Source of the DNA: Chromatiaceae bacterium
GTDB taxonomy: Bacteria; Pseudomonadota; Gammaproteobacteria; Chromatiales; Chromatiaceae
Length of the DNA: 56,425 nt
Assembly (NCBI GenBank): GCA_013426805.1
Contig: JACDZG010000039.1
Location: 1 to 56,425 of the forward strand
Direction: 5' to 3'
Notes under the pieces: model-generated
Seen by the model: the letters and a program-made list of their open reading frames with translations, nothing else
What the model was told of the DNA's origin: nothing
Databases searched by the model: none
Translations under genes and position numbers: made by a program
In this document: positions 32,516 through 48,872 of the stretch, piece by piece
How positions within the stretch are numbered: the first letter of the stretch is position 1
How the letters are laid out: each line of letters starts with the position of its first letter

Positions 32516-34218
32516 ATGATGCTTGAACTGCTCCGACGCCATCCGGAGCCGTGCGGACAACGCCCGGCGCTTATTCTCTTATGTTTGATACTGGTCCTGC
32601 GTCTGGCCCTGGGCCAGGCCGCGGCCGGGCTGACGGTACCCGGCGGCGTGGCGGCGAACGGCGCCGACGCGCTGCGCGCGCAGGTGGCCGCCGCTGGCTG
32701 GGTCACCGTGCGGGTGGAACTGCGCGCGCCCGCGGCGGTCGCGGCGGCGGATGACCTGGAGCGGACCGCGCAGGACCTGCTGTTCGCCTTGCCGGCCGGG
32801 TCCTATGACGGGGTCGAGCGGGCCGCTGGTTCAGCCAGCCTGAAGCTGCGGGTGGATGCGGCCGGGCTGGATGCGCTGCTGGGCTCGCCCTGGGCGGCGA
32901 GCGTTGCCGCGATTGGCAATCCGGAGATGCAACGGCTGGCCGCCGGCCAATATCACAGCCTGGCCCTCAAGCCCGATGGCAGCCTCTGGGCCTGGGGACA
33001 GAATGGACCCAGCTCGGCGACAGCACCAACACTGATCGATTGACGCCCGTCCAGGTTCTTACCGGGGTCGCGGCCGTCACGGCCGGCATGAATCACAGCT
33101 TGGCGATCAAGGCCGACGGTAGCCTCTGGGCTTGGGGATGGAACAGCGACGGCCAGCTCGGCGACGGCACCAGGACAGATTGCTGGACGCCGGTCCAAGT
33201 CCTTACCGGGGTGACGGCCGTATCGAGTGGGTGGGGTCACTCGCTGGCTCTCAAGACCGACAACAGCCTGTGGGCCTGGGGGTTCGCCTGGGGTGGCACA
33301 GGAGATCCCAGCGGCCAGAGTTCTAAGCCTATTCAAGTCCTGACCGAGGTCGCGGCCGTAGCGGCTGGCTGGGAATACAGCCTGGCCCGCAAGACCGACG
33401 GCAGCCTCTGGGCCTGGGGATATAACGCGTATGGCCAAGTCGGCGACGGCACCACCACGGGTCGCCTGAGTCCGGTGCCAGTAGTCGGGTTCGGGGCACC
33501 GCCCACCTCCACCGCCGACTTCACCGTCACCAACATCACCCTGAACCCAAGCGCCCCACTCGCCGGCGGCACCTTCAACGCCTCGATCACCGTCAAGAAT
33601 CGGGGCACCCAGGCCGGGAGCCCTGGGACCCTGCGCGTCTGGGCCAACCAACGCGCGACCCAAGACTGCGCGGCCCCAGGGGATGCCGACATCAGCCTGA
33701 CGAACCTGCCGGCGGGCGCCACCCAGACGGTGCGCATCACCCTGCCGGCCGGCACCGCCGGGTACCGGACCCTGCGGACCTTCGTCGACAGCCAGTGCCT
33801 GACCGCGGAACCCGATGAGACCAACAACCAGACCAGCAAGAGCTACCAGGTCGTTGCCCAGTCGATCGCGGACTTCGCGGTCACCAGCGTCGTGCTCAGA
33901 CCCAACCGCCCCACCGCCGGCGGGACCTTCAGCGCCGACGTGACGGTGAAGAACCGCGGCACCGCCCCCGGCGATGCCGACACCCTCGCCCTCTGGGTCG
34001 ATCAGCCGGGCGTCCCCGCCTGCGGCACCGCGGGCAACGCCGCGCTGCCCGTCGGCAACCTGGCCGCCGGTGCCAGCCGCACCCTGACCCTCGACGGCCT
34101 CCCCGCCGGGGCGGCCGCCGCCAAGTCTCTGCGCGCTTTCATCGACGCCGCCTGTCTCAGCGCGGAGGCCAACGACGGCAACAACCAATGGGTGAAGCCT
34201 TACACGGTCGTGCCCTGA
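32516..34218 (+). pseudogene. secreted RCC1-repeat and CARDB-domain protein, frameshifted
   Basis: Ancestral product about 567 aa. ATG at 32516 with AAAGGAAA 6 nt upstream. The signal peptide is ALILLCLILVLRLALGQAAA. A region rich in Ala follows, then four RCC1 repeats (AAGxxHSLALKxDGSLWAWG) and two CARDB-type Ig-like domains (ADFTVTNITLNPSAPLAGG; ADFAVTSVVLRPNRPTAGG). At 33006-33011 (GGACCC) the frame shifts inside the first RCC1 repeat: WAWGQN continues as GPSSATAPTLID-stop, while the correct continuation (QLGDSTNTDRLTPVQVL) is in another frame that runs to 34218. Two separate ORFs result. Cause is either a real indel or a sequencing error. Four RCC1 units are too few for a full seven-bladed propeller. 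Confidence 0.8.
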
Positions 34219-34427: not shown

Positions 34428-34616
34428 ATGCTTGAAGACATACGAGTTGAATGTCCCTACTGCGGTGAGGACTTCGATACGGTGGTGGACTGTTCCGCCG
34501 GCAGCCAGCGCTACATCGAGGACTGCGCCGTCTGCTGCCGGCCCATCGAATTCCAAGCCGAAGTCGACGACGCGGGGAATCTGTTCAGCGTGACAGCCCA
34601 CCGCGACGACGATTGA
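34428..34616 (+). CDS. CPXCG-motif cysteine-rich protein
   Basis: 62 aa. Two Cys pairs (ECPYCGEDFD and DCAVCCRPIEF) form a small zinc-ribbon-like fold, as in the CPXCG family of small conserved proteobacterial proteins. Start supported by AGGGG 6 nt upstream of ATG 34428. Function of the family is not established. Confidence 0.85.
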   Translation: MLEDIRVECPYCGEDFDTVVDCSAGSQRYIEDCAVCCRPIEFQAEVDDAGNLFSVTAHRDDD

Positions 34617-34740
34617 TCGTCAGCCAATCGACCGCATCAACGTCTGCGACATCCACGATCCAGAAACCAAACGCCTTGCCGGACGGATCTCGCCTTGACC
34701 GGCGAGCCCGTTCGGCGCAACCCTTATAATGGAGCACAAG

Positions 34741-35490
34741 ATGCTGTTCAGACAACTGTTCGAGCCCGTATCCAGCACCTACACCTACCTGCTGGGCTGC
34801 GAAGAGACCGGCGAGGCGATCCTGATCGACCCCGTTCTGCCTACCTGGCAGCGCGATCTGGCCGAGGTCGCGACGCTCGGACTGAAGCTCGTCGTGACAC
34901 TCGATACGCACGTCCACGCCGATCACATCACCGCGGCGCTCAGGCTCAAACAAGAGGCCGGCAGCCGGATCGCCCATCCCGCCGTCGACGGGCTCGCCTG
35001 CGTCGACCTGCCAATCGCCGAAGGCACGCCGCTGCTGGTCGGCAGTCTTCGCCTCGACCCGCTCTTCACACCGGGCCACACCGACGGTCATCACGCCTAC
35101 CGCATCGGCAACCAGGTCCTGACCGGCGATGCACTGCTGATCGACGCCTGCGGTCGCACCGATTTCCAAAGCGGCGACCCGACGGCTTTGTATCACAGCG
35201 TGGCCGGCAAACTCTTCGCGCTGCCCGACGAAACGCTGGTTTACCCAGGTCACGACTACGAGGGACGCTGGGTCTCGAGCATCGCGCAGGAGAAGACACG
35301 CAACCCGCGGCTCGGCGGCAACCGCTCGCTCGAATCATTCGTCGCGTTGATGAACGGGCTGAATCTCGCCTACCCGAAGTTCATCGATTATGCAGTGCCC
35401 GGCAACCGGGAGTGCGGCGTCTGTCCTGCCGGCGTTCCCGACAACCTCAGCCAATATTGCGACCAGATCGGGGAGAGCCGACAGGGTTGA
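34741..35490 (+). CDS. ETHE1-like persulfide dioxygenase (metallo-beta-lactamase fold)
   Basis: About 249 aa. MBL-fold hydrolase with THVHADHITAA (HxHxDH), TPGHTDGHHAY, GDALLIDACGRTDFQSGD and VYPGHDYEGR. The last two motifs, with Arg-Thr-Asp-Phe-Gln and the single mononuclear iron site, identify the ETHE1 group that oxidises glutathione persulfide to sulfite. This fits a sulfur-metabolising host. The ATG at 34741 (MLFRQLFEPVSSTYTYLLG) has GGAG at a proper distance and matches family N-termini; an ATG at 34729 is the alternative. Confidence 0.9.
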   Translation: MLFRQLFEPVSSTYTYLLGCEETGEAILIDPVLPTWQRDLAEVATLGLKLVVTLDTHVHADHITAALRLKQEAGSRIAHPAVDGLACVDLPIAEGTPLLVGSLRLDPLFTPGHTDGHHAYRIGNQVLTGDALLIDACGRTDFQSGDPTALYHSVAGKLFALPDETLVYPGHDYEGRWVSSIAQEKTRNPRLGGNRSLESFVALMNGLNLAYPKFIDYAVPGNRECGVCPAGVPDNLSQYCDQIGESRQG

Positions 35491-35584
35491 GAATCGCTCA
35501 GCGCTCCCTGGCCTGATCAATGAGTGCCAGGGTGTGATCAAGCCCGTGCGGCGCACCGCGCGTCGGTGGCGAACAGTCTTGAAC

Positions 35585-36442
35585 TCACCACTTGGGCATG
35601 CAGGCAAACGGCGATTCGAAGGGGACCGGCAGGGGCCAGCAAAAGTCGATGTCGGGTTCGACCTGACGCAGCATGTCGCGACCCACGAGGTAGTAGCTTT
35701 CCCGATAGCGGGACGGAAATCGAAAGGCTTCGCTCAATTCTGCCCCTTCAGCATCGTATTGCAGGCGTCGGGCGGCCGTTGTCAGGCGGATTCCCTCGGT
35801 CGCGCAGAGCTTGAACATCGCATCGGCTAAACCAGAAACATAAAAGGCGGAATGAAAAACCGCGAAGGTGTCGGTATTAACGTCATCGACGGTATAGCAG
35901 TAGGCGTAGCGCAGCCCCACGAAATTGTATTCCTCGCCACGCACCATGTAGGATTCGTCGTCGTCAATCAACAGCGTATCGTTGAGCGCCTCCTCGGGGA
36001 CGACCACACCCGCCAGTTTTTTCTTCAAATTGCCGAAAAAACACGGCTGATAGCGTTCTTTTTCCTCACGCTGCAGGCGACCCAATTGGTCGGTATCGAT
36101 GCAGTGCCGGCGGGAGAAGACGCGGTAAGGCGGGGGTTCGGTCTGATCGGAAAATGCCCGCCGCATGATTTGTTCCACGAGAGGCACATTGCGCTCTTCA
36201 ACGCCGGAACTGAAAAAGGCCAGGCTGACGCCATGTTCGTGCAACCAGCGTAACAGCGCGAAATAGCCTGGAAAGAGATAGTGGATATGGCCCAAGACCT
36301 CAAACCGATGCCGTTCCAGAAATGCCTCGCCAAATTTTTCGCGCACACGTTGTTCCGTCGTTTCCATGTCATAGCGAGCCACCACGATGACCATTGCCCC
36401 ATCGAGGTCGAAGACGAACGTATTCGTGGGATTTGCGTTCAT
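35585..36442 (-). CDS. HAD-superfamily (NIF-like) phosphatase domain protein
   Basis: 285 aa. Motif I is TFVFDLDGAMVIVVAR, motif II LAFFSSGVEERNVPLVEQ, a Lys-rich stretch LKKKLAGVVVP could supply motif III, and motif IV is DTLLIDDDESYMV. The layout resembles NLI-interacting-factor-like HAD phosphatases, with Ala replacing the usual Thr after DLDG. The C-terminal 100 residues are not recognised. The ATG at 36442 (MNANPTNTF) is chosen over a TTG at 36475. Substrate unknown. Same strand as the defence operon upstream but separated by 141 nt. Confidence 0.65.
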   Translation of the reverse strand: MNANPTNTFVFDLDGAMVIVVARYDMETTEQRVREKFGEAFLERHRFEVLGHIHYLFPGYFALLRWLHEHGVSLAFFSSGVEERNVPLVEQIMRRAFSDQTEPPPYRVFSRRHCIDTDQLGRLQREEKERYQPCFFGNLKKKLAGVVVPEEALNDTLLIDDDESYMVRGEEYNFVGLRYAYCYTVDDVNTDTFAVFHSAFYVSGLADAMFKLCATEGIRLTTAARRLQYDAEGAELSEAFRFPSRYRESYYLVGRDMLRQVEPDIDFCWPLPVPFESPFACMPKW

Positions 36443-36583
36443 TTTCAGAATCCTGCCCTTAATTGAGATGGTCAATGATCGCTATCGGGATGCAAGCGCC
36501 GCGCTGGGTCGACATTCGATCCCGGCCAGCAACCAATGTGATCCGGGCAGCAGCGCTGCCGCGAGCCAGGATTCAATCGATAT

Positions 36584-37765
36584 TCAGACATTGGGGATCG
36601 CACCCAGACGCCCCATGAGCCACAGCCGCGACAGGGGATAATCGGTTTGCAGGGCCAGCAGCTGCTTCGTCGGTCGTATGCGCCGACAGCAGGTGTGTCC
36701 ATTGCTGTCGCGATCCACGGCGAACAGACGCACCTCGTCGTCGGTCAGGTCCAGTCCGTCCAGAACGGCGGGGTTATGGGCCGTGAATAGCAGTTGACGG
36801 TCCGGCCCCCCGATCTGCAACCAGTGTGACAGTCGCTCGGCAAGCCGTGCGATCAGCCGCGGGTTGAGCGCCTGATCGAGATTATCGACCGCAATCAATC
36901 CGGGCGCCGCGGGGGAAAGGCAGAGAATGGCGCTGAAGAGCACGTAGAGCGCGCCTTCGCTGGCATCATAGGCGGAGAGGGTGTTGCGGCGCTGCGTCAT
37001 GAACCGATCGGTGAAACGCAACAGATACTTGCCGCGCGGCACCGCGGGCGACAGCAGGGGTCCGGCCGCATCCGTCACATCCACCTCGGCTACCCAATCC
37101 AGCAACTCCAACACGGTGTCGGCGAGATCTCCATCCCGATCCAGGACCGTCCGGCGCAGTCCCGCGAAGCCCTCCGCCAGCCGTCCACCCGCGAGTCCGA
37201 CCGGCGCGCGCGACTGGGGATCGGTGACTGTGCCCCGCAGCGCCGGGGTGTTGGGGCAGTAGATGGCGTAGCCCTGGAGGTGCCGCATCAGACGCGCAGC
37301 GGGGTTATCGGCGGGGATATCCACCAGTTTCAGTGCTGCGAGGCCCGCCGTCGCCGACAGATTCGCGGCAACCGTCCGCCCCCCGCGAGACACGAATTCC
37401 TGGTCCGCGTCGCACAGATATTCGGTCTTGTAAGACCAGGCAGGTTCTGGATTCTCCAGCGGGTTCAGCAGGGAGATCCGGTAAGTTGCACCGGAACCGC
37501 TGACGGCTCCGAGTGTGATGTGTGGTCGGATGGGGAGATCGGGGAAGGCTGTCTTGTACAGTCTGGGCGTCCCGGCCCGAACGCCGCGTCGTTGCAGTGA
37601 CTCGTCGTCCACCCGGCCGCTGGCCGCGGCGCCCAGCACACCGATGGCCTCCAGGATATTGCTCTTGCCAACCCCGTTGGCGCCAATGAAGCAGTTGACT
37701 CGGCCCGGATCGAAGGTCTGAGATGCTATGGACTTGAAGCCGTCGATCTGGATGGTGCGGATCAT
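36584..37765 (-). CDS. AAA ATPase (AAA_21/OLD-like) at the end of the defence operon
   Basis: 393 aa. Begins MIRTIQIDGFKSIASQTFDP, with Walker A CFIGANGVGKSNILEAIG. Walker B is unusual (GLIAVDNLDQALNPRLIARLAERL, with DN instead of DE) and is followed by QLLFTAHNPAVLDGLDL (switch His). Related ATPases with this IDNxDxALNPR form are known but of unclear role. Its ATG overlaps by 4 nt (ATGA) the stop of the alternative, probably ancestral, ptuB frame. It is therefore the fifth member of the hsdM-hsdS-ptuA-ptuB unit rather than an unrelated gene. No TOPRIM or DUF4276 partner follows. Confidence 0.8.
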   Translation of the reverse strand: MIRTIQIDGFKSIASQTFDPGRVNCFIGANGVGKSNILEAIGVLGAAASGRVDDESLQRRGVRAGTPRLYKTAFPDLPIRPHITLGAVSGSGATYRISLLNPLENPEPAWSYKTEYLCDADQEFVSRGGRTVAANLSATAGLAALKLVDIPADNPAARLMRHLQGYAIYCPNTPALRGTVTDPQSRAPVGLAGGRLAEGFAGLRRTVLDRDGDLADTVLELLDWVAEVDVTDAAGPLLSPAVPRGKYLLRFTDRFMTQRRNTLSAYDASEGALYVLFSAILCLSPAAPGLIAVDNLDQALNPRLIARLAERLSHWLQIGGPDRQLLFTAHNPAVLDGLDLTDDEVRLFAVDRDSNGHTCCRRIRPTKQLLALQTDYPLSRLWLMGRLGAIPNV

Positions 37766-37817
37766 GTATTCGTCTCGTGCGCGCCAGTCGACTCTGTGGT
37801 CCCGTCCTCCGGTCGCG

Positions 37818-38666
37818 CTAGCGTAAAGCGGGCGGCGTCAATCGACAAGGAGTCACACCGCGGGGTCTTGAGTTCGTCACGCGTTCGGTATCCGCCGTCG
37901 CGCGCGGCAGCAGGCGGGCGCTGAGCTGTCGATCCGGAGTCACCTGTATCTCCACGCAGACGCACCCGGCCGCGCTGCGCCAGCGGGGGTGGAACCAATT
38001 CGCCGCCTGATCTGCCGCGTCCCAGTCGAGCGGAACACCGATGCCTTTATGGCTGCCGCTGTTTGAGTCAGGGCAACTCGGGATCAGATTGTCTGGGTGA
38101 CATGACAGAAATGGAAACTCGTCCTTGGGCAGGAAATGATCAAGCTCCGTCTTTTGCAGGAAGTTATCGCAATAGGGACAGACCTTGCGGGCGGCGGGCG
38201 TGATCCCGGCCAGGTAATGAGACTTGGCCAGGGTCTCACTCCCGAGGCGGTAACCTTCGCCATCGTAGAGGAGGGGGGCATAGAAGGACTTCAACAGACT
38301 ATTGGCGGCGGAGAAGGTCTTGGATGTCTTCTGCGCCCAATCGACCTTATGCATGGTCACGCCGCCGCCTGACTGCCAAAGCACCTTGAACCGAAGCTCC
38401 TCCCGGCAGATGTCAGCAAGGCGCTGTTTGTCCAAGGGGCTCGCCGCGGCCAGCGTCTTGATCCATTCGGCGCGTTTGCCCTTGTCAAGGCTCCAGAATC
38501 GCTCGATCCATTCGGGCGGCAATTCGTGCCAAACCCCTTCGAGCCAGGATCGATCGACCGCCGCGCCCGCGGTCAGGCCGCATAGCCGCAGGATCAGCCG
38601 GCGCTGCAATGCGACCACGCGCAGCAGCCGGCGCCGCTTGGTCGAATCAGGAACCGGATGAAGCAT
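37818..38666 (-). CDS. ptuB: PtuB-like HNH endonuclease of a Septu system, probable C-terminal frameshift
   Basis: 282 aa from ATG 38666 (MLHPVPDSTKRRR), overlapping ptuA by 20 nt. The HNH/zinc site is VCPYCDNFLQKTELDHFLPK followed by HPDNLIPSCPDSN, as in the PtuB partner of PtuA ATPases. The last 30 or so residues (ERVTNSRPRGVTPCRLTPPALR) look like shadow sequence. A second frame (RTRDELKTPRCDSLSIDAARF to a stop at 37762) has better GC3 and ends in an ATGA overlap with the next gene, so a frameshift near 37880-37930 is likely. The HNH core is intact. Confidence 0.75.
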   Translation of the reverse strand: MLHPVPDSTKRRRLLRVVALQRRLILRLCGLTAGAAVDRSWLEGVWHELPPEWIERFWSLDKGKRAEWIKTLAAASPLDKQRLADICREELRFKVLWQSGGGVTMHKVDWAQKTSKTFSAANSLLKSFYAPLLYDGEGYRLGSETLAKSHYLAGITPAARKVCPYCDNFLQKTELDHFLPKDEFPFLSCHPDNLIPSCPDSNSGSHKGIGVPLDWDAADQAANWFHPRWRSAAGCVCVEIQVTPDRQLSARLLPRATADTERVTNSRPRGVTPCRLTPPALR

Positions 38667-40435
38667 CGAGCCGCGACAGAATCTCGGTGAGCTTGGCGCG
38701 CGGCCATCCGGCGCCGATCTCTTCCACCAGACGGGCAAGCTCGTCGCGATTGTCCGCGGTCCACTCCTGCTTGAGCTTTTCGCGCAGGAACTCCGCCGCG
38801 CGCCGTCCGATGATCTCGGGCGAGCCGAAGACATGCATCAGGATCCGCCCAGGGTCAGCACCGAAGGTCGGGAATGCGGGCGACTCCGCGATGATGCGAT
38901 CGTCGCGCCAGGACAAGCGGACGACCTCGGACGAGAAGACATCGGTCAGGGCGATGCTGGTATGGGTCGAGACCAGCCTGGGCAAAGGTCTCCTTCAGAA
39001 TCACGTCGTCGATCATGTCGATCAACTCGCGTTTCCAGACATCGTTGAAGTGGGTCTCGGGTTCGTCCAACAGCAGCAGGGCGCCGTCCTGGCCGCGGAC
39101 CAGATGCAGCAGGGCGACGCGGCCCAAGAGCATCTGCTCGCCGTCGCTGAGTTGGTCGAAGGTGATGATTGCATCGTCCGGTTCGCCGTCGGATGAGTTG
39201 ATCTGATGGAGGCGCTTAATGGTCAGGTTGACCTCTTCCAGCAGGCCCGCTGCCTGCCAGGCACGCAGGGTCTCGAAGACCTCGATCAGGGTCGGCTCCA
39301 GCGCAATGACCGCGCGGTAACGACCGAGGGGCTGAGCAACCACGGTGTCGGCCAGACCCAGTAGACAGCCCAATCGGTCGCGCTGAGTGTCATCGATCTG
39401 GTCGTCATCGGCCCGATAGACCAGACTCATGTGAGTCGGCAGGAACCAGTCCAGTTGGTTCAGCACGCGGCGGGCGGGATCGCCGCTACCGGCAGGTGCC
39501 GCGATACAATCCCGGCGCAGTGCCGCCTGATCCGACTCGGTGCGGCGACTGTGCAGTTCGCGAGCGGCTTGCCACACTGCCAGGGCGATGGCGGCATGGC
39601 GCAGATCGGATGCGCAAACGCGGGTTGCCTTGGCCGCGTCGGCGGCCACTTCGGGTCGGCGCGTCGCGGCCAGCTTCGCTTGCGTGTCGGCCGCGTAGCG
39701 CTTGGCTTCCAAGATCGGCTGGATCCATGCCGGCCCGCCGAGACTCAGCCGGCCGTCGCCAGGCCGCTCGACGGTGGCACCCGACGCGCCCTCGCTCAGG
39801 TGCAGCGGAACCTGTTCCGTCCACTCTTGCTCAATGGTCCAGCCGGGAGGCCGCTCCTCCGGGCTCGCCTGATCGGTTGGCGCGGTCCAGTCCGGACGAA
39901 AGCGATGCTGCTCCAATTCCGCCCACAGAAGCTCAGCTCCGGAGGTGTAGCCGATCAGCCGACGCGGCATATGGGCCTGGAGATAGGAGCCGGTGCAGGC
40001 ATCGCTGCCACGCTCCACCCGGGTCTCGTGGTAGTCACCCGAGCCGTCGGAAATACCGGCGATCATCGCCTGCCACTGGGCCTCATCCAGGGTGTCGGGC
40101 AGGCGCGCGAGTGCGGTGAAAAAGGTCCGCTCCAAGGCCTGGGCATCCTTGTGGAAGATGGCGGTGACCGCTTCAGTGCCGATCAGACGATCCCAAGCGA
40201 GCGTGATCGGAAGTGGCGGTGGGCTCCCGCTGCTCAAGGCGCGGAAGCTCCGGTAGATGGCCCGCAGCAGACTGGACTTGCCGGTGCCGTTGACACCAAC
40301 CACGAAATTGATGGCACCCTTGCGCTTGGCCGGGTCTAACTCCGACCAGCCGTACAACATCGCCTCCTGGCCGAACCGGACGGCCAGGTCCTGCAGCGGG
40401 CCACAGTGGGGCAGGTGCAGCCAGCGCAGCCTCAA
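38647..40435 (-). pseudogene. ptuA: PtuA-like ATPase of a Septu system, one-base frameshift near the C-terminus
   Basis: Ancestral product about 595 aa. Walker A is FVVGVNGTGKSSLLRAIY; DQLSDGEQMLLGRVALLHL is the signature and GALLLLDEPETHFNDVWKREL Walker B. At 38980-38982 a CCC on the coding strand shifts the frame. With one C removed, KETFARLVSTHTSIALTDVF follows, restoring the switch His (STHTS) and a C-terminal region that stops at 38647. As sequenced, the frame ends at 38855 in nonsense. Starts 4 nt inside the hsdS stop. PtuA and PtuB form an ATPase-nuclease complex that blocks phages. The frameshift would remove the switch region, so the protein may be inactive unless this is a sequencing error. 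Confidence 0.8.
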
Positions 40436-42189
40436 GGTACCGTCTCCTCACGCTTTCGATTGCCCAGCAGGCGCAGAATCTCTTGGTCCCGAGCGCCTTC
40501 AACACCAGCCATGGACTGTGCATCGTCATCCTCGTCCGCAACTGGGTCCGCTACCGGCAGCCGGTAGCAGTTCCCGTAAACAGTCTCGTCGGTGTCCGGA
40601 GTGCGTTGTTCCAGGCTTAGGGCAATGACCAGTCCGCGGGCTACCAGCACCGCCAGGTTCGATTCGACGGCCTGGACATTGCCGTGTAAAGAACCGGTGA
40701 GGGCATGCGCGACCTCGGCAGCGGTGAAAATCCTGCTCGTGTCGCGGTCTTGCGCCCCGTCGTCCGCCAACTTCCATTCGCTGCGTTCGAGCTGCCCCAG
40801 CACTCGGTACTGATCCCGCGCAAGCTCGAAGCGCGGCCCCTCGTCGCGCGGCACGTTCTCATATGCGGGCAGGTCATCAGCGGGATCGCGAGAGTCGGTA
40901 CTGCCAATAGCATTAAGTGCGTCGTCGCGGGCGCGCAGCTCGTCCATGTGATCATCCAATTGTGTTTCACGCCATCCGGCGGTCAATTGCCCGCTGAAGG
41001 CGTTCGTTTGCAATGATCCCGTCAAATTAACTTCAAGCTTGCGGCCCAATTCAGCAACGGCGGTGAGCGACCTGAACCCCATCACCCACTCGCTATAGGC
41101 TGCCCTTTCCTCTTTGCTTGGCAGAGGCAATCGCACGTCACTAACAACTCGGGTTGATATCGTGCTAAGTCCGCTCGTTGTGTTCCCTGAAACAAAAAAA
41201 TGACGCCGACCGAAAACACTGTTCAAGAACGCAGAAACAAAATATGGATCAATGCTTTCTCCGCACCTAACACGAATCAGGTGATTCTGATGCACGCATT
41301 GTTCTATTTCTCCATTCCAAACGGCTGCCCGGCCAAGCTCTTTAGGATTGCCGTGCCCTTCCACGACTAGAATATCTCCTGGTCTCAATGCGGTTCGCGT
41401 CAACTCTTGTTCAGTAACGCCTATTTCAAGTATTTCGTCGAGGGCAAGCTTGTCCCGTTGCACGTTCGCCACCCGCAGATACGGAACTCTTCGCGGGATA
41501 GCATCTCGCTTTCTTGAGACCTGAACGCCGCCTTGGACATCTGCAATATCTCCGAGCCTTACGGTAGCCACCCTAGCATGATTAGAAAAATGGGCTTCAA
41601 AATAGTAATTTAATGCTCCGCTAGAAATCACACTTGTCTTTTTATCTGAAATAACTCGTAACCCCCTAATCATGTCAGCCTCGTTCAAGACTGAAACGAT
41701 TTTCTGCTGCTCACTGATAATAGGAAGAGGAATCTTGAAACTTGCCAGAAAAGATTCAGGAACGCGCTGCTGACCGACCGCACCTTGAAAGGATGCGGCT
41801 GCCTGCCTTCGCACGGCATCGACGCGCAGAAGAAAAAACACCCACTCCGCCATCACGAGCGAACTGGGGCGTAAAACATGGAACTCGGTCGAGCCGTAAC
41901 CGACTCCGTTAACCAATCCCCGCGCAATCGCAGCCTTTCCGTTCTCCATGCAGGGCGTGATCTTAGCGAACAGCACATCCCCGTCGATGAAGGGGGTATA
42001 ACCTTTCATCACTTCCCGATAGTTCCTAGCAGAAGCCGCGACGATTCGTCCGAACCGCTCATTCACCGCGCTCATCGACACAAAAGACACCTTATCGTCA
42101 AGAGCTGGATCTGGTTTCGAGCGAGGGTTTATTTCGCAAATGTCGCCCAATCGCGGCACTGCCCAGGATGGGGGTAAATTCGCAATCAT
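40432..42189 (-). CDS. hsdS: HsdS, type I restriction-modification specificity subunit with C-terminal extension
   Basis: 585 aa. Two target-recognition domains are visible: WAVPRLGDICEINPRSKPDP with IPLPIISEQQKIVSVL, and VATVRLGDIADVQGGVQVSR with LPLPSKEERAAYSEWV. After the second conserved helix come about 170 extra residues (from LTAGWRETQLDDHMDELRAR) rich in charge, which is unusual for HsdS. The extension resembles no TRD and could contact the following Septu proteins, by inference. The TRD part (about 41000-42100) is markedly AT-richer than its flanks, as expected for exchanged recognition domains. It overlaps hsdM and ptuA by 4 nt each. Confidence 0.88.
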   Translation of the reverse strand: MIANLPPSWAVPRLGDICEINPRSKPDPALDDKVSFVSMSAVNERFGRIVAASARNYREVMKGYTPFIDGDVLFAKITPCMENGKAAIARGLVNGVGYGSTEFHVLRPSSLVMAEWVFFLLRVDAVRRQAAASFQGAVGQQRVPESFLASFKIPLPIISEQQKIVSVLNEADMIRGLRVISDKKTSVISSGALNYYFEAHFSNHARVATVRLGDIADVQGGVQVSRKRDAIPRRVPYLRVANVQRDKLALDEILEIGVTEQELTRTALRPGDILVVEGHGNPKELGRAAVWNGEIEQCVHQNHLIRVRCGESIDPYFVSAFLNSVFGRRHFFVSGNTTSGLSTISTRVVSDVRLPLPSKEERAAYSEWVMGFRSLTAVAELGRKLEVNLTGSLQTNAFSGQLTAGWRETQLDDHMDELRARDDALNAIGSTDSRDPADDLPAYENVPRDEGPRFELARDQYRVLGQLERSEWKLADDGAQDRDTSRIFTAAEVAHALTGSLHGNVQAVESNLAVLVARGLVIALSLEQRTPDTDETVYGNCYRLPVADPVADEDDDAQSMAGVEGARDQEILRLLGNRKREETVP

Positions 42190-44217
42190 TTCAGTTCCTC
42201 GATCATTGCCATCAGCCGACCCAGACGTTCCCGAATCTTCGCATAGATCGCATCCAACTCCTTGATAAGTTCAGCGGGCGGGCGGTGCACGCCTGCATCG
42301 AATACAAAAGGCTTGTGCCGTCCAGCCGAGAGATTGAAATCCAGTGCCTCCAGGCACTCGGGCTCCAGCCGATCCAGATGCTCCTTGAGGATGGTCGCGT
42401 CGTCGTCGAAGACCTGGGCGGTGTCCTTGAGCCAATCCAGATAGTCCAGGCGCACCAGACCGGCCGAATCGTGGGTGGACGAGACGATCTCATCGCCGGT
42501 CTCCGGATCGGCACCCCAAGTCTCGCGTCTCGCCCAGACGCGCACCGGGACGACCCAGCTTTGCGGGGCCGGCGCCCGTCCCGGCTCGCCAGCCTCGTCG
42601 ACCGTTCGCTTTCCATCGTAGCGGGTGGTCTCATTGCCGCGGCGCCAGACGTTATAGCCGTCGAGTTTGGCGAATTCGCTCACGATGGCGCGCAGTTCAG
42701 GAACGGCGGCTTCGATGTCCGGAACGGGCGCGCCCTCGGCGCCAGCGAGGTCAACCGCCTCGGCGGCCCCGGCTGCAGCTTGTTGCCTGGTCGCATCGAT
42801 CAGGGGCTTGAGTGCATTGAATCCGTACTGGTCGAACTCGCGGTCCAGCAGGCCCTCCTCGCGGATCAGCCGGGTGATCCGATTCCCAAGATCGCGGGCA
42901 GCGCGGTCGGTGTGCTCCCGGCGCTTGTCGGGGTCGGCCGCAATGGTTGACCGCATGGCCTTGCTCGCACCGGCATAGGCCGAACGCAGGGTGTTTGCGC
43001 AATGCTGTTCGAAGCACTGGGCCAAGCGCGGCCCCTGCTCGGCAACAACGGCGGCCTCGGCCTCCCGCGGGTCGCGCGGCAGTCCGGGCCATAACTCATG
43101 CAGGGCCCAGGGCTTGCCCTTGTCCGCGTCCTTGTCCGGGAAGACCTTGAGAAAGGCGTCGTCGACCACGCGCCAGCGTTCTTCCCAATAGTCCGGCTGC
43201 CAGTAATCGCCGCCGGTGGCGGCCTCGCGCCGCTCAGGAAGGCGGGAGTCCGCCCCTTCATCGGCTTGGCCATCCAGATAGGCCTTCCAAGCGCGGTATT
43301 TCTCCAGTGCATCGAACAGGTCGTTGTCCTGACCGGAGCGGGGCTTGCGCTTCTGATCCAAGCTGTAGGCTTCTTCCATGACTTCATAGAACCAGACCTC
43401 GCGGGTGCGCGGCTCGTCGCCCTTGGCGGGTTTGGTCTCCGGGGTCTGGGCCTTCTGAAAGACCAGGATCGAGGTCTTGACGCCCGAATAGGGCTGGAAG
43501 ACATTGGGCGGCAGCGAGACCACCGCCTCCAGGGTGTTCTCGAACAGCAGTTGCCGACGCAGCGCACGGTGGGCCTTGGTGTTGCCGAAGAGCACGCCGT
43601 CCGGGACGATGACGGCCGCGCGCCCGCCGATGCGCAGCAGGTCCAGGATCAGCCAGACGTAGAGCAGCTCGCTCTTGGTGGTGATGGGCTTGCCACGCTC
43701 ATAGGGGACGCGCTGGCGGTTTTCGCTGAGATCCGCCTCATCGACACTGCCGGTAAAGGGCGGGTTGGCGAGCACATGGTCATAGCCGCCGCTTTCCTCA
43801 TCCGTCATACGCTTGCTGAGGCTGTCGCGCTGCGCGATATTCGGGGCTTCCAGCCCGTGCAGGAGCAGGTTCATCCAGGCGATGCGGACCATGGTGCGGT
43901 CATTGTCATAGCCGTGAAGGCTCTGGTCCAAGTCCGGGGCCTGGCCTTGGGGCCAGACGGGGAGCAGGTTGTGGGGGGCGCCATCCCATTCGAGCTTGAG
44001 TGATTCGGCGTCCGTGTGGCTTGCCCGCCAGTGCAGCAGGGTGTTGATCAGAAAGCCGGCGGAGCCGCAGGCGGGGTCCATGACCCGGGCGCCGGGGGCC
44101 GGGTCCAGCAGTTCGACCATGAAACGGATGATCTGGCGCGGGGTGCGGAATTGGCCGTTCTTGCCGGATTCCTTCACCTCTTTGAGCAGGTGTTCGAAAA
44201 TGTGGCCTTGGTCATAA
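42186..44217 (-). CDS. hsdM: HsdM, type I N6-adenine methyltransferase, 5'-truncated
   Basis: Open frame enters from the group II intron junction; the first start inside it is a GTG at 44177, giving 663 aa. Motif I is RVMDPACGSAGFLINTLLHW and motif IV HVLANPPFTGSVDEAD. SGKNGQFRTPRQIIRFMVELL normally lies well inside HsdM, after an N-terminal helical domain of roughly 130-160 residues that is absent here. Upstream codons (VYDQGHIFEHLLKEVKESG) are clearly HsdM but stop at the insertion. The protein probably lacks the domain needed to bind HsdS/DNA properly. No hsdR gene lies in the window. Confidence 0.85.
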
Positions 44218-44377
44218 ACCCGGCCACCGCGCGATCTGCACGGTCGTCGGTCCGGGAGAGTAGACCGGCCCCTCCCCGCGCTTCAGGTCGAAGTTGGTGT
44301 TCTCTGTTTGCCGCCTGGTTTCCCGGCGGTGCCACAAGATCGCGACCATACGCGGGTACGGGTGCCGGCCCCTCGCA

Positions 44378-44410
44378 GAACCGGACGTGGTGCGTTACAC
44401 CATCCGGCTC
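44378..44410 (-). ncRNA. group II intron domain V
   Basis: A 33-nt hairpin: GAGCCGGATG pairs with CACGTCCGGTTC around the internal loop and distal stem GTGTAACGCAC. The AGC catalytic triad and asymmetrical bulge positions fit the domain V consensus. It is the strongest RNA-level evidence for the intron. Confidence 0.65.
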
Positions 44411-44997
44411 CCAGTTCGGGTCAGCCACACAGCGGGCGGCACGAAGAAATTATGCACGATACGCGCACGCGGAAGTTGCGGGGCGATCCGTTCCCAAAAG
44501 CACGCCCAGGTCAATCGGCGGCGCTGGCGGCGCCGGACGCGTGCCTGGTACAGCGCTTTTGCGCCCTGGTAGAGGTAGACCCTGACCGCGCGGAAATTGC
44601 CGCTCACACCGTAGTATTGGATGTGCCCGCACAGGTGGCGACCGGCATCGTCGATCATTGCCGTTCCGCCCGCCGTGCTCCGCTTGGCTAATTCGTCGCC
44701 GAGCTCGCGCAGTTTCTTGCATACGCGCTTGCCGATCGTGCGTCGTCCAACCGAACAGCCTCCGTGGCGGCCGAAGGTCACGTAGTGAGTAAAGCCGCGG
44801 AAGTCGAAGGGTCGCGGTTTGGCGAGTCGTCTTCGCGGCAGTGGTCGGCCGCCTCGCTGCCGAACCGCAGGAGCGCGACCTCTTCGGCGGCGCGCTCCAG
44901 GTCGAATGCCCGCAGGCGCTCGGCCAAGGCGTCGTGGAAGGCTTCGGCGTCCTCGCGCCGCGCACAGCAACCGATGAAGTCGTCGGCATAGCGTCCG
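44395..44997 (-). pseudogene. C-terminal half of a group II intron reverse transcriptase/maturase
   Basis: Begins at GRYADDFIGCCARREDAEAF, holding the catalytic YADD, and continues in one frame to about 44790. Then a different frame carries the rest: FDFRGFTHYVTFGRH, GHIQYYGVSGNF, LYQARVRRRQRRRLTWACF and ARIVHNF, the RT-7/thumb, X-domain and D-domain of intron maturases. The N-terminal RT motifs 0-4 are missing, and there is at least one frameshift. Confidence 0.75.
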
Positions 44998-44998
44998 T

Positions 44999-45107
44999 GT
45001 ATCGGCGCTCCGCCAACTGGACCTCATAATCGGCACGCTCCAGACGTAACTGCCACTGGCGGGTCAAGGCCGCATCCGAGAGCGCCGCGAGGCGCTCGTC
45101 CAGTCCT
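44999..45107 (-). pseudogene. fragment of a serine recombinase coiled-coil region
   Basis: The frame LDERLAALSDAALTRQWQLR followed by LERADYEVQLAERRY matches the coiled region that follows the zinc ribbon in large serine recombinases. It is joined within a few bases to the YADD part of the intron reverse transcriptase, so the two were fused by illegitimate recombination. Confidence 0.55.
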
Positions 45108-45445
45108 TCCGCAGACGGTTCTCCCCGGTTGCCGCGTACTCTTAATGTGCAACTCGATGCTGCCTGCGACCCCAGGTCGCCCTCGCGCGCTCGCCCTTGG
45201 TGCGCGCTCGGGTGTTGCCTGCCGGTGCTGCGATACCGTCGGCCGGTTCCAACTTGGGTATTTCGGGGCTTCAGCCTTCACGGTCAGCTCCACCTGTTAC
45301 CATTGCACCTCGTCTCCTTTCGTGCCTACGCATCGACGGGCCTGTTACCAGTTCCCGCCGCAAGGCTCGATACCAGACCGCGGCTAGCGGCTACCTGGGT
45401 GGGATTCTCACCCACTCGACTACGCGCTCTTGCCGGGACGCACCA

Positions 45446-45718: not shown

Positions 45719-46237
45719 AAATGATTGCCTGAATCGTCCGGCTTCACAAAATTTCGCGAATGTAGTGCCACTGACCGATATTTTCCGCTGTAACCGGATG
45801 ATCTTAATAGAGAAATAACTTGAGGCGTTAAACTTGGGCTAAGGTATCTCCCATTCCCCCATTCCCCCATTCCCCCATTGACAACCGTTACCAGACATGA
45901 TTCTATCTATATTTCTTCACCTGCTGAAAGGTTTTGCCTTCACCACATACATCACCGCCTGACTGTTGAGACGCTTCTAGGGGCGTTCCAGAGGGCCGTG
46001 CGGAGTGCGGGGGCCTTTTCGAGTGGTTCGCCCAGTTCCGGCCGAACCCTGCAGTGGCTTGCGGCCTAACGTGCCTGACACTGGCGAGCATTCAGAACCC
46101 GGGGCCTTCAGTTAACTGACGATCTCCATTTTGCGGCGTTCACGATATCTGCCATCTCCCTCATTTTTAACTATAAATCGCTGCTTGTTAAACATATATG
46201 CTATTCCTTGGCGCATTCAGATCGCTGACTTAAGGTA
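45719..46237. other. AT-richer spacer before the exporter operon
   Basis: About 520 bp without a convincing gene. It contains a short tandem array of CCCCCATT units at 45850-45878 (about 3.5 copies) and, at 46170-46200, AT-rich sequence that may hold the exporter promoter. TAAGG lies just before the ATG at 46238. Confidence 0.4.
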
Positions 46238-47494
46238 ATGCTACTCAAATTGGCATTCAGAAATGTCTTCCGGCATCGGGGGCGTTTTATATTAGGCACG
46301 TTTATTGTTGGAATCGCCAGTTGGATGCTGGTCTTCGCCACCGGGCAAATTGGCGGTGTAAAGGAGGCGTTGGTGCGCGGCATGACCGATAGTCTGGTCG
46401 GACATATCCAGGTCAAGCCCCGGGAAGCGCCCCGGGACTTCTTCGATGTGCAGACCGGGCGACGCATTTCCCTTATCCCGGCTGATCAATTGGCATCGGT
46501 GTTGGCAAAAATTCGCACTTTGCCGGAAGTGGCTGCTGCGGCGCCGCGACTGCGTTTTGGCGCACTAGTCGGCAATGACGAAAAATCGACTCCGGCGATG
46601 GTTATGGCCATTGACCCAATGGACGAGTCCCGGGTCAGTCCGGACATGGCCGCCTCCTTGAGTCTGGTGTCGTCCGGTATTCAGGCATCCCTGGTTTCCA
46701 AGCACTTGGTCGATAAACTCAGCATTCCCGTGGGTCAGGAATTGTTCGTGGTCACCGAGACGCCCATTGAGGCTTACAACGGTCGGCCCTTCGACATCAA
46801 GGGTTATGCCAGTTCGCCGGTCCTGATCGACGAATATATGAACATGCTGGTGATCGCCAATCTCGATCGCTGTCGCAAGATGCTTTATGTGGAAGATGTG
46901 GCAACAGACATTGGGGTTCGTGTGAAGCCCGCGTATGTCGGCCGTCTTGATGATGTCATCGCTCATATCGAAACAGTGCTGAGTCCGCAGGAGCGGCAGT
47001 ACCTCGGCGCCTATTCCTATCGGGAGGTTGCGCAGTCGGTCAATAGTGTCGGAACAATCGCCAGCAGCATGGCCGCTATACAGGTAGGTGTGGTCATGTT
47101 TGTGATGCTGGTGATCGTTCTGATCCTGACCAAGATGGGGCTTCGGGAACGGCGTCAAGAGATTGGCAGCCTGATCGCTCTAGGCATGACAAGAGGCCGC
47201 TTGGTTCGCCTGTTCTCCTACGAAGTGGTGATCCGGGTTTTAATCGGGTACGGTATCGGTTTCGCGATTGCCGCCATACTGTTGCTAAGTATCCGCCATT
47301 CGGGTGGGATCGCTGCATCATCGCTGGTGGAGCAATTTATGAACGGCGGTAAGATCATGATTCCAGTGCTTGATGGCGCAACGATCTTTTTCGGGTTGCT
47401 GGTAGTATTGGGCGTATCCTTACTGACCACCTTTGCCAGTTGTTGGCGGGCTGCGAGCGAGGATGCCGTCGATTTGCTAAATTCAACTGAATGA
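46238..47494 (+). CDS. ABC transporter permease (LolC/MacB-like), first subunit
   Basis: 418 aa. FtsX-like permease with an N-terminal membrane anchor (NVFRHRGRFILGTFIVGIAS), a periplasmic MacB-PCD domain (about 45-265) and three C-terminal segments (VGVVMFVMLVIVLILTK, VVIRVLIGYGIGFAIAAILL, ATIFFGLLVVLGVSLLTTFA) with the family LRERRQEIGSLIALGMTRGR. Works with the next permease and ATPase to move a lipid-linked or hydrophobic substrate from the inner membrane. Seven nt before the second permease. In this setting it probably exports or places the product of the downstream cluster, by inference. Confidence 0.88.
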   Translation: MLLKLAFRNVFRHRGRFILGTFIVGIASWMLVFATGQIGGVKEALVRGMTDSLVGHIQVKPREAPRDFFDVQTGRRISLIPADQLASVLAKIRTLPEVAAAAPRLRFGALVGNDEKSTPAMVMAIDPMDESRVSPDMAASLSLVSSGIQASLVSKHLVDKLSIPVGQELFVVTETPIEAYNGRPFDIKGYASSPVLIDEYMNMLVIANLDRCRKMLYVEDVATDIGVRVKPAYVGRLDDVIAHIETVLSPQERQYLGAYSYREVAQSVNSVGTIASSMAAIQVGVVMFVMLVIVLILTKMGLRERRQEIGSLIALGMTRGRLVRLFSYEVVIRVLIGYGIGFAIAAILLLSIRHSGGIAASSLVEQFMNGGKIMIPVLDGATIFFGLLVVLGVSLLTTFASCWRAASEDAVDLLNSTE

Positions 47495-47501
47495 GTCCCC
47501 C

Positions 47502-48830
47502 ATGACCGAAATGGCTGCCAATCCACCCGGCACCGTGGGTCACATCAAGTCCCAAATGCAGGCATTCGTCTGGAGGCTTCTGGATAGCCGCTGGAAGCTG
47601 ATCATTCGCAATGTGCGGAAGCAAAAGTCGCGAAACATGTTGTTGGGCGCCCTGATCATGTTTTCCAGCTTTGTCATCATTTATTTTTCTCAGTTTCTGG
47701 CCGGGGTGCATCAGAATTTTTCCCAGAATCTGGTGGCGTTGGCTACCGGCGATGTGTTCATCTCTTCCAAGGTGACGCGGGAGATGGACAAAAACATATT
47801 TGAGCGGGATTATGAATATTTTCGGCTGACGCCGCCCTTCGCCGACGAGATCAAACACCTGCCCGGAGTGAATGCCATCGCTCCCCGCTTGGAATTCGAT
47901 GTTAAGGTGGCGACGGAAATCGACAGCATTCCCTTCCGCGCGATGGCATTCGATCGGGCCGTAGACGAGAATCTCTACGCAAATTTTACGCTCGTTGAAG
48001 GTCGGATGTTTAACAAGGGGGCGTATGAAATCATCGTTCCAGTGGATTTTGCGCGGCGTAATGTCATCAAGGTTGGCGACAGGATCAGGCTGATTGCCAC
48101 GACACTCAACAAGAAAGTCAATCTGATCGACTATGAGGTGACCGGCCTGTTCAACTCCATCAGTCTGTCGGCTTGGTTCGACAACTATGTCTATGTCGAT
48201 CTCGCAGTCGCGCGCGTGCTGGTCGATGACCCTGAGGCGGTGACGCGGCTCAATATCAGCACCCCACCTGATGTGTCGGTCAAGGGGGTGATGGAGGAAC
48301 TAAGGGCGAGGCTGAGTCGGGTACCGGTTCCCGCTAACCCGGTGCTTGAACCCATGGAGTGGCAGGACAGCGCCCAGATCTTTTCGGAATTGACCGGCGC
48401 CCTGCAATTGAGCTACGTGATGATCATTGTAATAATCACGATCATGGTCGCCGCGAGTCTCGCGTTTTCTACGATGCTTAATATTCTCGAGCGAACCAAG
48501 GAGTTCGCTACTTTGGCTGCCTTGGGTGCCGCACCCAAGGAAATCCGCTTCATCCTGGTCGGGGAAACGATGACCTTGGCGTTGTTTGCAGCGGCCAGCG
48601 GTGTGGCGCTTGCGGCGCAAACCTATCTGATTACCGCTGAGTGGGGTATTCCTATCGAGAACAAGGAATTAAGTGGGTTTCTTGGGTCATCCCACTTCTT
48701 CCCGGCGTTTAATCTGTCGGGCTACGTGCTGGGGATTATGCTTCCCTTGCTGGTCGCCTTTGTATCCAGCTATTTCTTCGCTCTGCGGGCATCGAAATTG
48801 CCGATTGCCGAGGCCCTAGCCGATCGCTAG
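47502..48830 (+). CDS. ABC transporter permease (LolE/MacB-like), second subunit
   Basis: 442 aa with the same plan as its partner: anchor segment MLLGALIMFSSFVIIYFS, periplasmic MacB-PCD domain, and C-terminal segments containing ILERTKEFATLAALGAAPKE, which is the FtsX coupling region. Two unlike permeases plus one ATPase match LolCDE. The stop codon lies inside an 11-bp tandem repeat (48816-48847), so slippage there could change the C-terminus. Confidence 0.88.
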   Translation: MTEMAANPPGTVGHIKSQMQAFVWRLLDSRWKLIIRNVRKQKSRNMLLGALIMFSSFVIIYFSQFLAGVHQNFSQNLVALATGDVFISSKVTREMDKNIFERDYEYFRLTPPFADEIKHLPGVNAIAPRLEFDVKVATEIDSIPFRAMAFDRAVDENLYANFTLVEGRMFNKGAYEIIVPVDFARRNVIKVGDRIRLIATTLNKKVNLIDYEVTGLFNSISLSAWFDNYVYVDLAVARVLVDDPEAVTRLNISTPPDVSVKGVMEELRARLSRVPVPANPVLEPMEWQDSAQIFSELTGALQLSYVMIIVIITIMVAASLAFSTMLNILERTKEFATLAALGAAPKEIRFILVGETMTLALFAAASGVALAAQTYLITAEWGIPIENKELSGFLGSSHFFPAFNLSGYVLGIMLPLLVAFVSSYFFALRASKLPIAEALADR

Positions 48831-48847
48831 CCGATCGCTAGCCGATC
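48816..48847. repeat. 11-bp tandem repeat across a stop codon
   Basis: CTAGCCGATCG occurs almost three times in direct tandem. The TAG of the second unit is the stop of the LolE-like gene. Unit length is not a multiple of three. Confidence 0.75.
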
Positions 48848-48872
48848 AGCATTTTTGCGGAAACCAATCTCG

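Follow-up and report, generated by a model that had tools for sequence, protein, structure and literature searches.

A most likely decayed member of a recurrent linkage between type I restriction genes and a Septu-like ATPase-HNH pair in a Chromatiaceae bacterium

The window analysed here is contig JACDZG010000039.1 (56,425 nucleotides, whole) from the Chromatiaceae bacterium assembly GCA_013426805.1. On its minus strand it carries hsdM and hsdS of a type I restriction-modification (R-M) system, followed by genes for a PtuA-like ATPase, an HNH protein resembling PtuB and, last, an ATPase of the AAA_21 family. We found that the linkage of hsdS to a PtuA-like gene is real and recurrent; the window most likely represents one such locus in a decayed state. 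Quite probably it holds the remains of a defence operon whose intact ancestor was arranged as hsdR-hsdM-hsdS-ptuA-ptuB, with PDC-M31A-PDC-M31B after it. The last ATPase, put forward in the initial annotation as a new component of a composite system, is one of the two members of a separate, previously catalogued module and not a component of the composite.

A PtuA-like ATPase gene placed directly or closely after hsdS, with hsdM nearby, was identified at 23 distinct loci on plasmids, genomes and viral contigs; two scans of viral contigs supplied 21 and 6 loci, from which L067 (a copy of L066) and L073 (on the same contig as L087) were not counted, and plasmid match H2 is likewise not among the 23. 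The gene order is beyond chance because it recurs in unrelated genomes and plasmids, and the linkage of hsdM-hsdS to a PtuA-PtuB pair, claimed initially from this one stretch, was thereby confirmed as a recurrent arrangement. hsdR lies nearby in 13 of the 23 loci (L016, L045, L046, L057, L060, L064, L066, L068, L070, L071, L086, L087 and L088), and the EcoEI_R_C domain was present in all six PtuA-linked HsdR proteins scanned (L016, L057, L060, L064, L070 and L086). One further locus, L069, is an otherwise hsdR-less hsdM-hsdS-PtuA-PtuB locus with a C-terminal HsdR remnant just before hsdM (L069:5948-6157; residues 706-779 of the L060 HsdR, 35% identity, E 6e-6), and here the loss of hsdR seems to be caught in the act. 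In the remaining nine (L017, L056, L058, L059, L061, L062, L063, L065 and L072), tblastn with seven HsdR proteins found no hsdR. Nine is an upper bound, as the sequence available around some loci runs out: L061, from a Pseudoalteromonas donghaensis plasmid, begins with the first base of a circular record, and L065 with the first base of its contig. Composites that lack hsdR probably do exist, for the most part in a PtuA clade other than that of the window. An extra gene stands between hsdS and the ATPase gene in L060, L071 and L086; L056, L060 and L071 showed no recognisable PtuB-like gene, and the stretch of L072 ends after the ATPase. In L074-L085 and L089-L091, no hsdS is annotated beside the ATPase. 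Direct relatives of the window PtuA numbered zero in 369 genomes of the class besides its own, and none was confirmed in viral contigs; a two-row PtuA profile reached 2 further genomes of 398.

The nearest relatives, L016 (on a Pantoea agglomerans plasmid) and L045, both read hsdR-hsdM-hsdS-ptuA-ptuB and show the same 4-nt hsdM/hsdS overlap as the window. Identity of the window PtuA to its relatives is about 26-33%. In a maximum-likelihood tree of 22 PtuA rows, built without L056 and L059 (in both of which PtuA is divided between two frames), the window grouped with the hsdR-plus loci L016 and L045 at 100/98, and this group joined L086, also hsdR-plus, at 89/92; the tree program flagged long branches, including that of the window. 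Seven of the eight rows labelled hsdR-minus, L069 included, fell into another clade of 11 rows (100/99), alongside four hsdR-plus rows. Judged from these comparisons, the window operon is likely to have once possessed an hsdR.

The end of the operon at hsdM is truncated. The window hsdM matched the HsdM of L016 (817 aa) at residues 150-814 only, with 39.6% identity; about 149 N-terminal codons are missing and were not found upstream of the truncated gene. The truncated end abuts a decayed group II intron, whose core was located just upstream of hsdM at 45160-45408 (Rfam RF02005, E 1.1e-27). A hairpin near 44375-44407 looks domain-V-like by eye. The intron itself looks decayed as well, because the three open reading frames (ORFs) tested in its region had no Pfam match. 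For hsdR, tblastn of the window with the seven HsdR proteins gave chance matches only (best E 0.18). The genome carries three EcoEI_R_C genes elsewhere, two with 25-29% identity to the HsdR of L016 and L045 and one with 77% identity to that of L001; therefore, no EcoEI_R_C gene of the genome looks like the lost hsdR of the operon. The absence of hsdR noted in the initial annotation thus stands for the window as far as the seven queries reach. It does not stand as a design feature, because the cut in the operon falls within hsdM and the closest PtuA relatives have hsdR directly upstream. As a separate observation, another type I locus lies on a 6.7-kb contig of the same genome (L038, G000:C292); besides hsdS and an hsdR of the L001 type, which matched as two separate pieces, it has an AAA gene, a DUF1016-like gene and a short ORF resembling hsdM.

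The two flanks of the operon were compared with eight genomes of the genus. Only one of the eight, the genome of the window itself, matched the right flank (46201-48850). For the left flank (34500-36480), matches came from all eight, mostly as short pieces; longer ones came from G510 and G513 alone, at 95-97% identity, and their identity ends at about 35500 (window 34500-35506 covered). This end may mark the edge of a variable region. The comparison of the flanks yielded no reconstruction of an empty site.

Both Septu-like genes are broken. In ptuA the frame changes near 38980: the first ~485 codons run to about 38981, the last ~112 codons (38985-38647) lie in another frame, and the L016 PtuA aligned across both. 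The best stretch of the PtuA profile match (PADLOC, 4.7e-27) spans only about 90 of 527 profile positions. For this first ATPase, NCBIfam offers TIGR04435 ('restriction system-associated AAA family ATPase') as the nearest name, at 53 bits against a cut-off of 300. The ptuB frame with homology ends early at 37818, and a second frame extends to 37762; the PtuB-like protein had no Pfam match. We regard both frame breaks as probably real rather than as assembly errors. The five-gene order and the overlaps of 4, 4, 20 and 4 nt described initially were borne out, as hsdM and hsdS overlap at 42186-42189, hsdS and ptuA at 40432-40435 and the second ptuA frame and ptuB at 38647-38666. The last overlap, between ptuB and the AAA gene (37762-37765), exists only in the second ptuB frame, which homology did not confirm. 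Both ATPases of the operon belong to AAA_21 (Pfam).

The coordinates of the features are collected in Table 1. Close to the defence region, positions 33040-34218 encode a protein that combines RCC1 repeats with CARDB domains.

Table 1. Features of the operon and its borders in the window.
Feature	Position	Strand	Evidence
hsdM, 5'-truncated, N6 adenine methyltransferase	42186..44216	-	Pfam N6_Mtase 2.5e-51; DPACGS and NPPF motifs
hsdS, specificity subunit, 585 aa	40432..42189	-	Pfam Methylase_S 2.2e-13; PADLOC Specificity_I 1.3e-106; PDB HsdS chains
HsdS C-terminal extension, ~180 residues past core	40435..40977	-	see text
ptuA-like ABC ATPase gene, broken	38647..40435	-	PADLOC PtuA1 4.7e-27; TIGR04435 2.7e-14; Walker A, LSDGE, LLLLDE motifs
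ptuB-like HNH protein gene	37762..38666	-	PADLOC PDC-M01B 3e-17, PtuB 1.2e-5; CPYC...ELDHFLPK...NLIPSC motif by eye
PDC-M31A, AAA_21/OLD-like ATPase, 393 aa, open frame intact	36584..37765	-	PADLOC PDC-M31A 2.4e-178, 591 bits
PDC-M31B fragment, residues ~150-178 of ~233, remainder of gene gone	36500..36580	-	tblastn and profile
Decayed group II intron at truncated hsdM 5' end	44221..45430 (ends by eye)	-	Rfam RF02005

The last ATPase matched PDC-M31A over 395 of 395 profile positions (PADLOC) and keeps the Walker A, SEG, TAHN and DNLDQALNP motifs; at 18 of the 213 columns invariant among six relatives, it differs from them. Fifteen relatives with 35-69% identity were collected: six from a genome-contig scan, seven (the window not counted) from 210 genomes of the order, one from a plasmid and one from a viral contig. 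A PDC-M31B-like gene directly follows PDC-M31A in all 15. PDC-M31B is a gene of ~232 aa (PADLOC; the L003 copy scored 339 bits) with invariant EG.TD and D.D motifs, and it overlaps PDC-M31A by 8 nt in several relatives. A gene of 241-267 aa likewise follows in four more distant viral-contig relatives (31-35% identity); three of these genes matched PDC-M31B by BLAST, and the fourth (L079) shows only an EGPSD motif by eye. With the window protein as query, no PDC-M31A was found in viral contigs, the relatives there having come through another query.

In the window, the stop codon of the AAA gene is directly followed by residues ~150-178 of PDC-M31B (~27 codons) and soon by a stop. This fragment matched the L003 partner at E 4e-5 in tblastn, and the profile matched at 36485-36580 with E 0.004 in its own genome, where the search for a further PDC-M31B gave one weak match only (E 0.13). 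A 62-codon PDC-M31A-like fragment, 60% identical, also occurs in this genome near a DUF1016-like gene (G000:C38:10668-10853, equal to L041:6669-6854); no PDC-M31B match below E 0.5 was found there.

PDC-M31A/B was met in various surroundings. It follows hsdR-hsdS in L001 and L003 and lies inside an hsdM/hsdS locus in L002. In L004 and L005 (the latter a Limnohabitans locus) it sits, with some further genes, between hsdS and a long hsdR; the placement between the two that the initial annotation named as refuting its reading of the Septu pair is thus seen for the other module, PDC-M31A/B. Beside the other ten relatives (L006, L018, L031-L037 and L074), no hsdS or hsdR was found with the seven HsdR and 11 HsdM/HsdS queries, some stretches being short (L037, 4.4 kb); in L032, a neighbouring protein of 1259 aa contains a weakly matching methylase-like stretch (E 9e-5). 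The module also stands alone, for example on an Enterobacter plasmid. With this catalogued identity, a partner in all 15 relatives and ten relatives without hsdS or hsdR found, the DNLDxALNPR ATPase is no longer a candidate for a new component. Two of these loci deserve separate mention. In L002:7521-9520, a different pair of an AAA_15 ATPase and an HNH protein precedes PDC-M31A/B, so that two ATPase-nuclease pairs are stacked in one restriction locus. On a conjugative plasmid of Enterobacter hormaechei (L018:9001-17008), PDC-M31A/B lies beside traI and near genes for a SAVED domain, a ThiF adenylyltransferase and Mov34/PAD-1, a CBASS-like set.

The C-terminal extension of HsdS had been singled out as unusual; that it is a special feature of the window was not supported. 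HsdS is 585 aa long here and equally long in L016 and L045 (635 and 643 aa). The window extension resembles those of the two relatives weakly (about 22% identity), below significance in BLAST (best E 0.08); profile comparison with other HsdS extensions found no match, including to the extension family of other Septu-linked HsdS, and the single-sequence fold of 114 residues was poor (pLDDT 57.5).

The HsdS proteins of the other PtuA clade end in ~80 residues that can be recognised as a family of their own. Twelve HsdS ends were aligned, and a leave-one-out profile refound 11 of them at E <= 6e-10, L056 failing; close kin among the aligned rows (L061/L062 and L066/L068) help these scores. Within the clade (the 11 tree rows plus L059), the C-terminal domain is present in 11 of 12 HsdS proteins (L061, L062, L058, L059, L063, L065, L066, L068, L017, L069 and L070) and absent from L064. 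The other 12 PtuA-linked HsdS proteins (those of the window, L016, L045, L046, L056, L057, L060, L071, L072 and L086-L088) gave no match, the best being E 0.04 for L071. The domain was likewise found in none of ten HsdS proteins without PtuA beside them (L001, L003, L004, L005, L038, L097, L098, L100, L101 and L104). These controls exclude L002, with its own ATPase-HNH pair nearby (PtuA profile 1.4e-9), and L103, whose stretch ends with hsdS; for L100 only 841 bases after hsdS were seen, and L001, L003-L005 and L038 have other AAA genes, further downstream, with a weak match to the PtuA profile. Among 26 viral loci drawn by HsdS alone, three (two distinct) had the domain, each with PtuA following, and it was absent from the other 23. 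This sample adds little, because its three loci are the contigs L066-L068, partly in the profile, and several of the 23 show a partial hsdS. It is possible from these sequences that the domain serves PtuA docking in this clade; the lead applies there and provides no evidence on the window.

For the decayed operon that we favour, the modules may be pictured as follows. In the ancestor, HsdM2S would have methylated and recognised a split DNA site, and HsdR would have cut unmodified DNA. PtuA-PtuB, co-transcribed after hsdS, would have formed a second nuclease arm, acting when the restriction complex meets phage DNA or fails against it; the pair would then be triggered by HsdMS. At the 3' end of the operon, the OLD-like ATPase PDC-M31A and its TOPRIM-like partner PDC-M31B may have served as a backup that worked independently. 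In the series of losses that we infer for this genome, the group II intron relic would mark the loss of hsdR and of the hsdM N-terminus, and with the frame breaks in ptuA and ptuB and the deletion of most of PDC-M31B, the restriction, Septu and PDC-M31 activities would most likely all have been lost. Several points weigh against this picture. The relatives are distant (HsdM 39.6%, PtuA 26-33%), the former hsdR is derived from two of them and a long-branch tree, and, with 70 of 500 shuffles reaching a value as low, the hsdR label shows no excess clustering on the tree. Both frame breaks could be assembly errors. PDC-M31A, with an open frame and its motifs kept, could still act. Finally, 'TOPRIM-like' is our own presumptive label, based on motifs, and a fold search did not confirm it, the predicted fold of PDC-M31B (pLDDT 78) giving 0 PDB matches at E <= 0.001.

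The alternatives differ in what they make of the linkage and of the damage. Type I operons might be mere landing sites for unrelated modules, so that HsdMS would cooperate neither with the Septu pair nor with PDC-M31. The behaviour of PDC-M31A/B, which follows different genes in different restriction loci and occurs outside such loci too, fits this, as do the PtuA-PtuB-like pairs without hsdS beside them (L089-L091) and, in an excerpt of PMC12255303, DarTG2 as well as an ATPase pair embedded between hsdS and hsdR. Against passive stacking stand the PtuA-like gene placed directly or closely after hsdS in 23 distinct loci on plasmids, genomes and viral contigs, with and without hsdR, and a common HsdS domain that tracks PtuA in one clade. 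We consider it a serious possibility that nevertheless falls short of being probable. A working system without hsdR is a much weaker candidate for the window. In it, HsdM2S would mark and recognise DNA, PtuA-PtuB would replace HsdR by docking to the HsdS extension, and PDC-M31A would be an extra regulator. The overlapping genes, the 9 of 23 distinct hsdM-hsdS-PtuA loci without hsdR in the stretch seen and the C-terminal domain common to 11 of 12 HsdS proteins of one PtuA clade are in its favour, but the window has a truncated hsdM and broken ptuA and ptuB, its nearest relatives are hsdR-plus, and its extension falls outside the C-terminal domain family; we judge it very improbable.

If the frame breaks were sequencing or assembly errors, ptuA and ptuB would be intact in the living organism. 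The continuation of ptuA homology on both sides of its break is what one would then expect, yet the separate losses at both ends of the operon, of hsdM/hsdR and of PDC-M31B, fit decay, and we hold such errors to be unlikely. A decayed operon with a former hsdR remains our preferred account of the window. A broader idea concerns the family as a whole: HsdM-HsdS would have been wired repeatedly to PtuA-PtuB in bacteria and prophages, in one clade via a PtuA-docking HsdS domain; at some loci the pair would have taken over restriction and hsdR would have been lost, leaving a Septu that is gated by methylation and addressed by sequence. The window would then belong, as a broken copy, to a sister branch in which the nearest relatives have kept hsdR. 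We offer this idea tentatively and consider it rather unlikely.

Compared with known systems, the window resembles Septu in its PtuA profile match, the adjoining HNH protein and the ABC ATPase motifs; it differs in that the pair is joined by operon to hsdMS and both of its genes are broken. Type I R-M systems having an EcoEI_R_C HsdR and a downstream ATPase-HNH pair (TIGR04435; PADLOC PDC-M01A/B) are similar in the order hsdM-hsdS-ATPase-HNH, in the TIGR04435 and PDC-M01B profile matches and in the hsdR upstream in the nearest relatives, whereas the window lacks hsdR and the hsdM N-terminus and its ATPase is far under the TIGR04435 cut-off. As a PDC-M31 system, a PADLOC candidate of components A and B, the locus has an intact A with a full-length match, but its B is reduced to a fragment. 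MADS likewise brings together an adenine methylase, an HsdS-like subunit and an AAA ATPase, but the window has an HNH pair instead. A MADS identity was rejected, as the MAD2, MAD3 and MAD5 profiles scored 112.8 of 720, 47.1 of 400 and 30.7 of 420 bits against the curated cut-offs.

In the literature, neither PDC-M31, TIGR04435 nor 'restriction system-associated AAA' was found to be mentioned among the papers searched. No paper on hsdMS-linked Septu was noticed among the titles and abstract beginnings listed, and the linkage may well already be in print. Excerpts of published work describe related settings: DarTG2 and an ATPase pair, each embedded in a type I operon between hsdS and hsdR, along with a mention of Septu in Hma (PMC12255303), Hma with Septu (PMC8565338), and PrrC inside a type IC locus as a classical second-tier effector (PMC12707154). 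Pairs of an OLD-like ATPase with an HNH or TOPRIM protein beside a modification system, as published, are similar to the window; the modules of the window are broken, and its locus is not described in those excerpts.

Taken by itself, the window is of little importance, being a broken copy whose second ATPase is a catalogued module that has lost its partner. To our knowledge, it is not settled how Septu-type ATPase-nucleases know when to fire. A Septu pair locked into type I operons, some of them without an hsdR found, suggests that the trigger can come from a complex that methylates and recognises DNA, and the common HsdS domain points to a candidate contact with PtuA.

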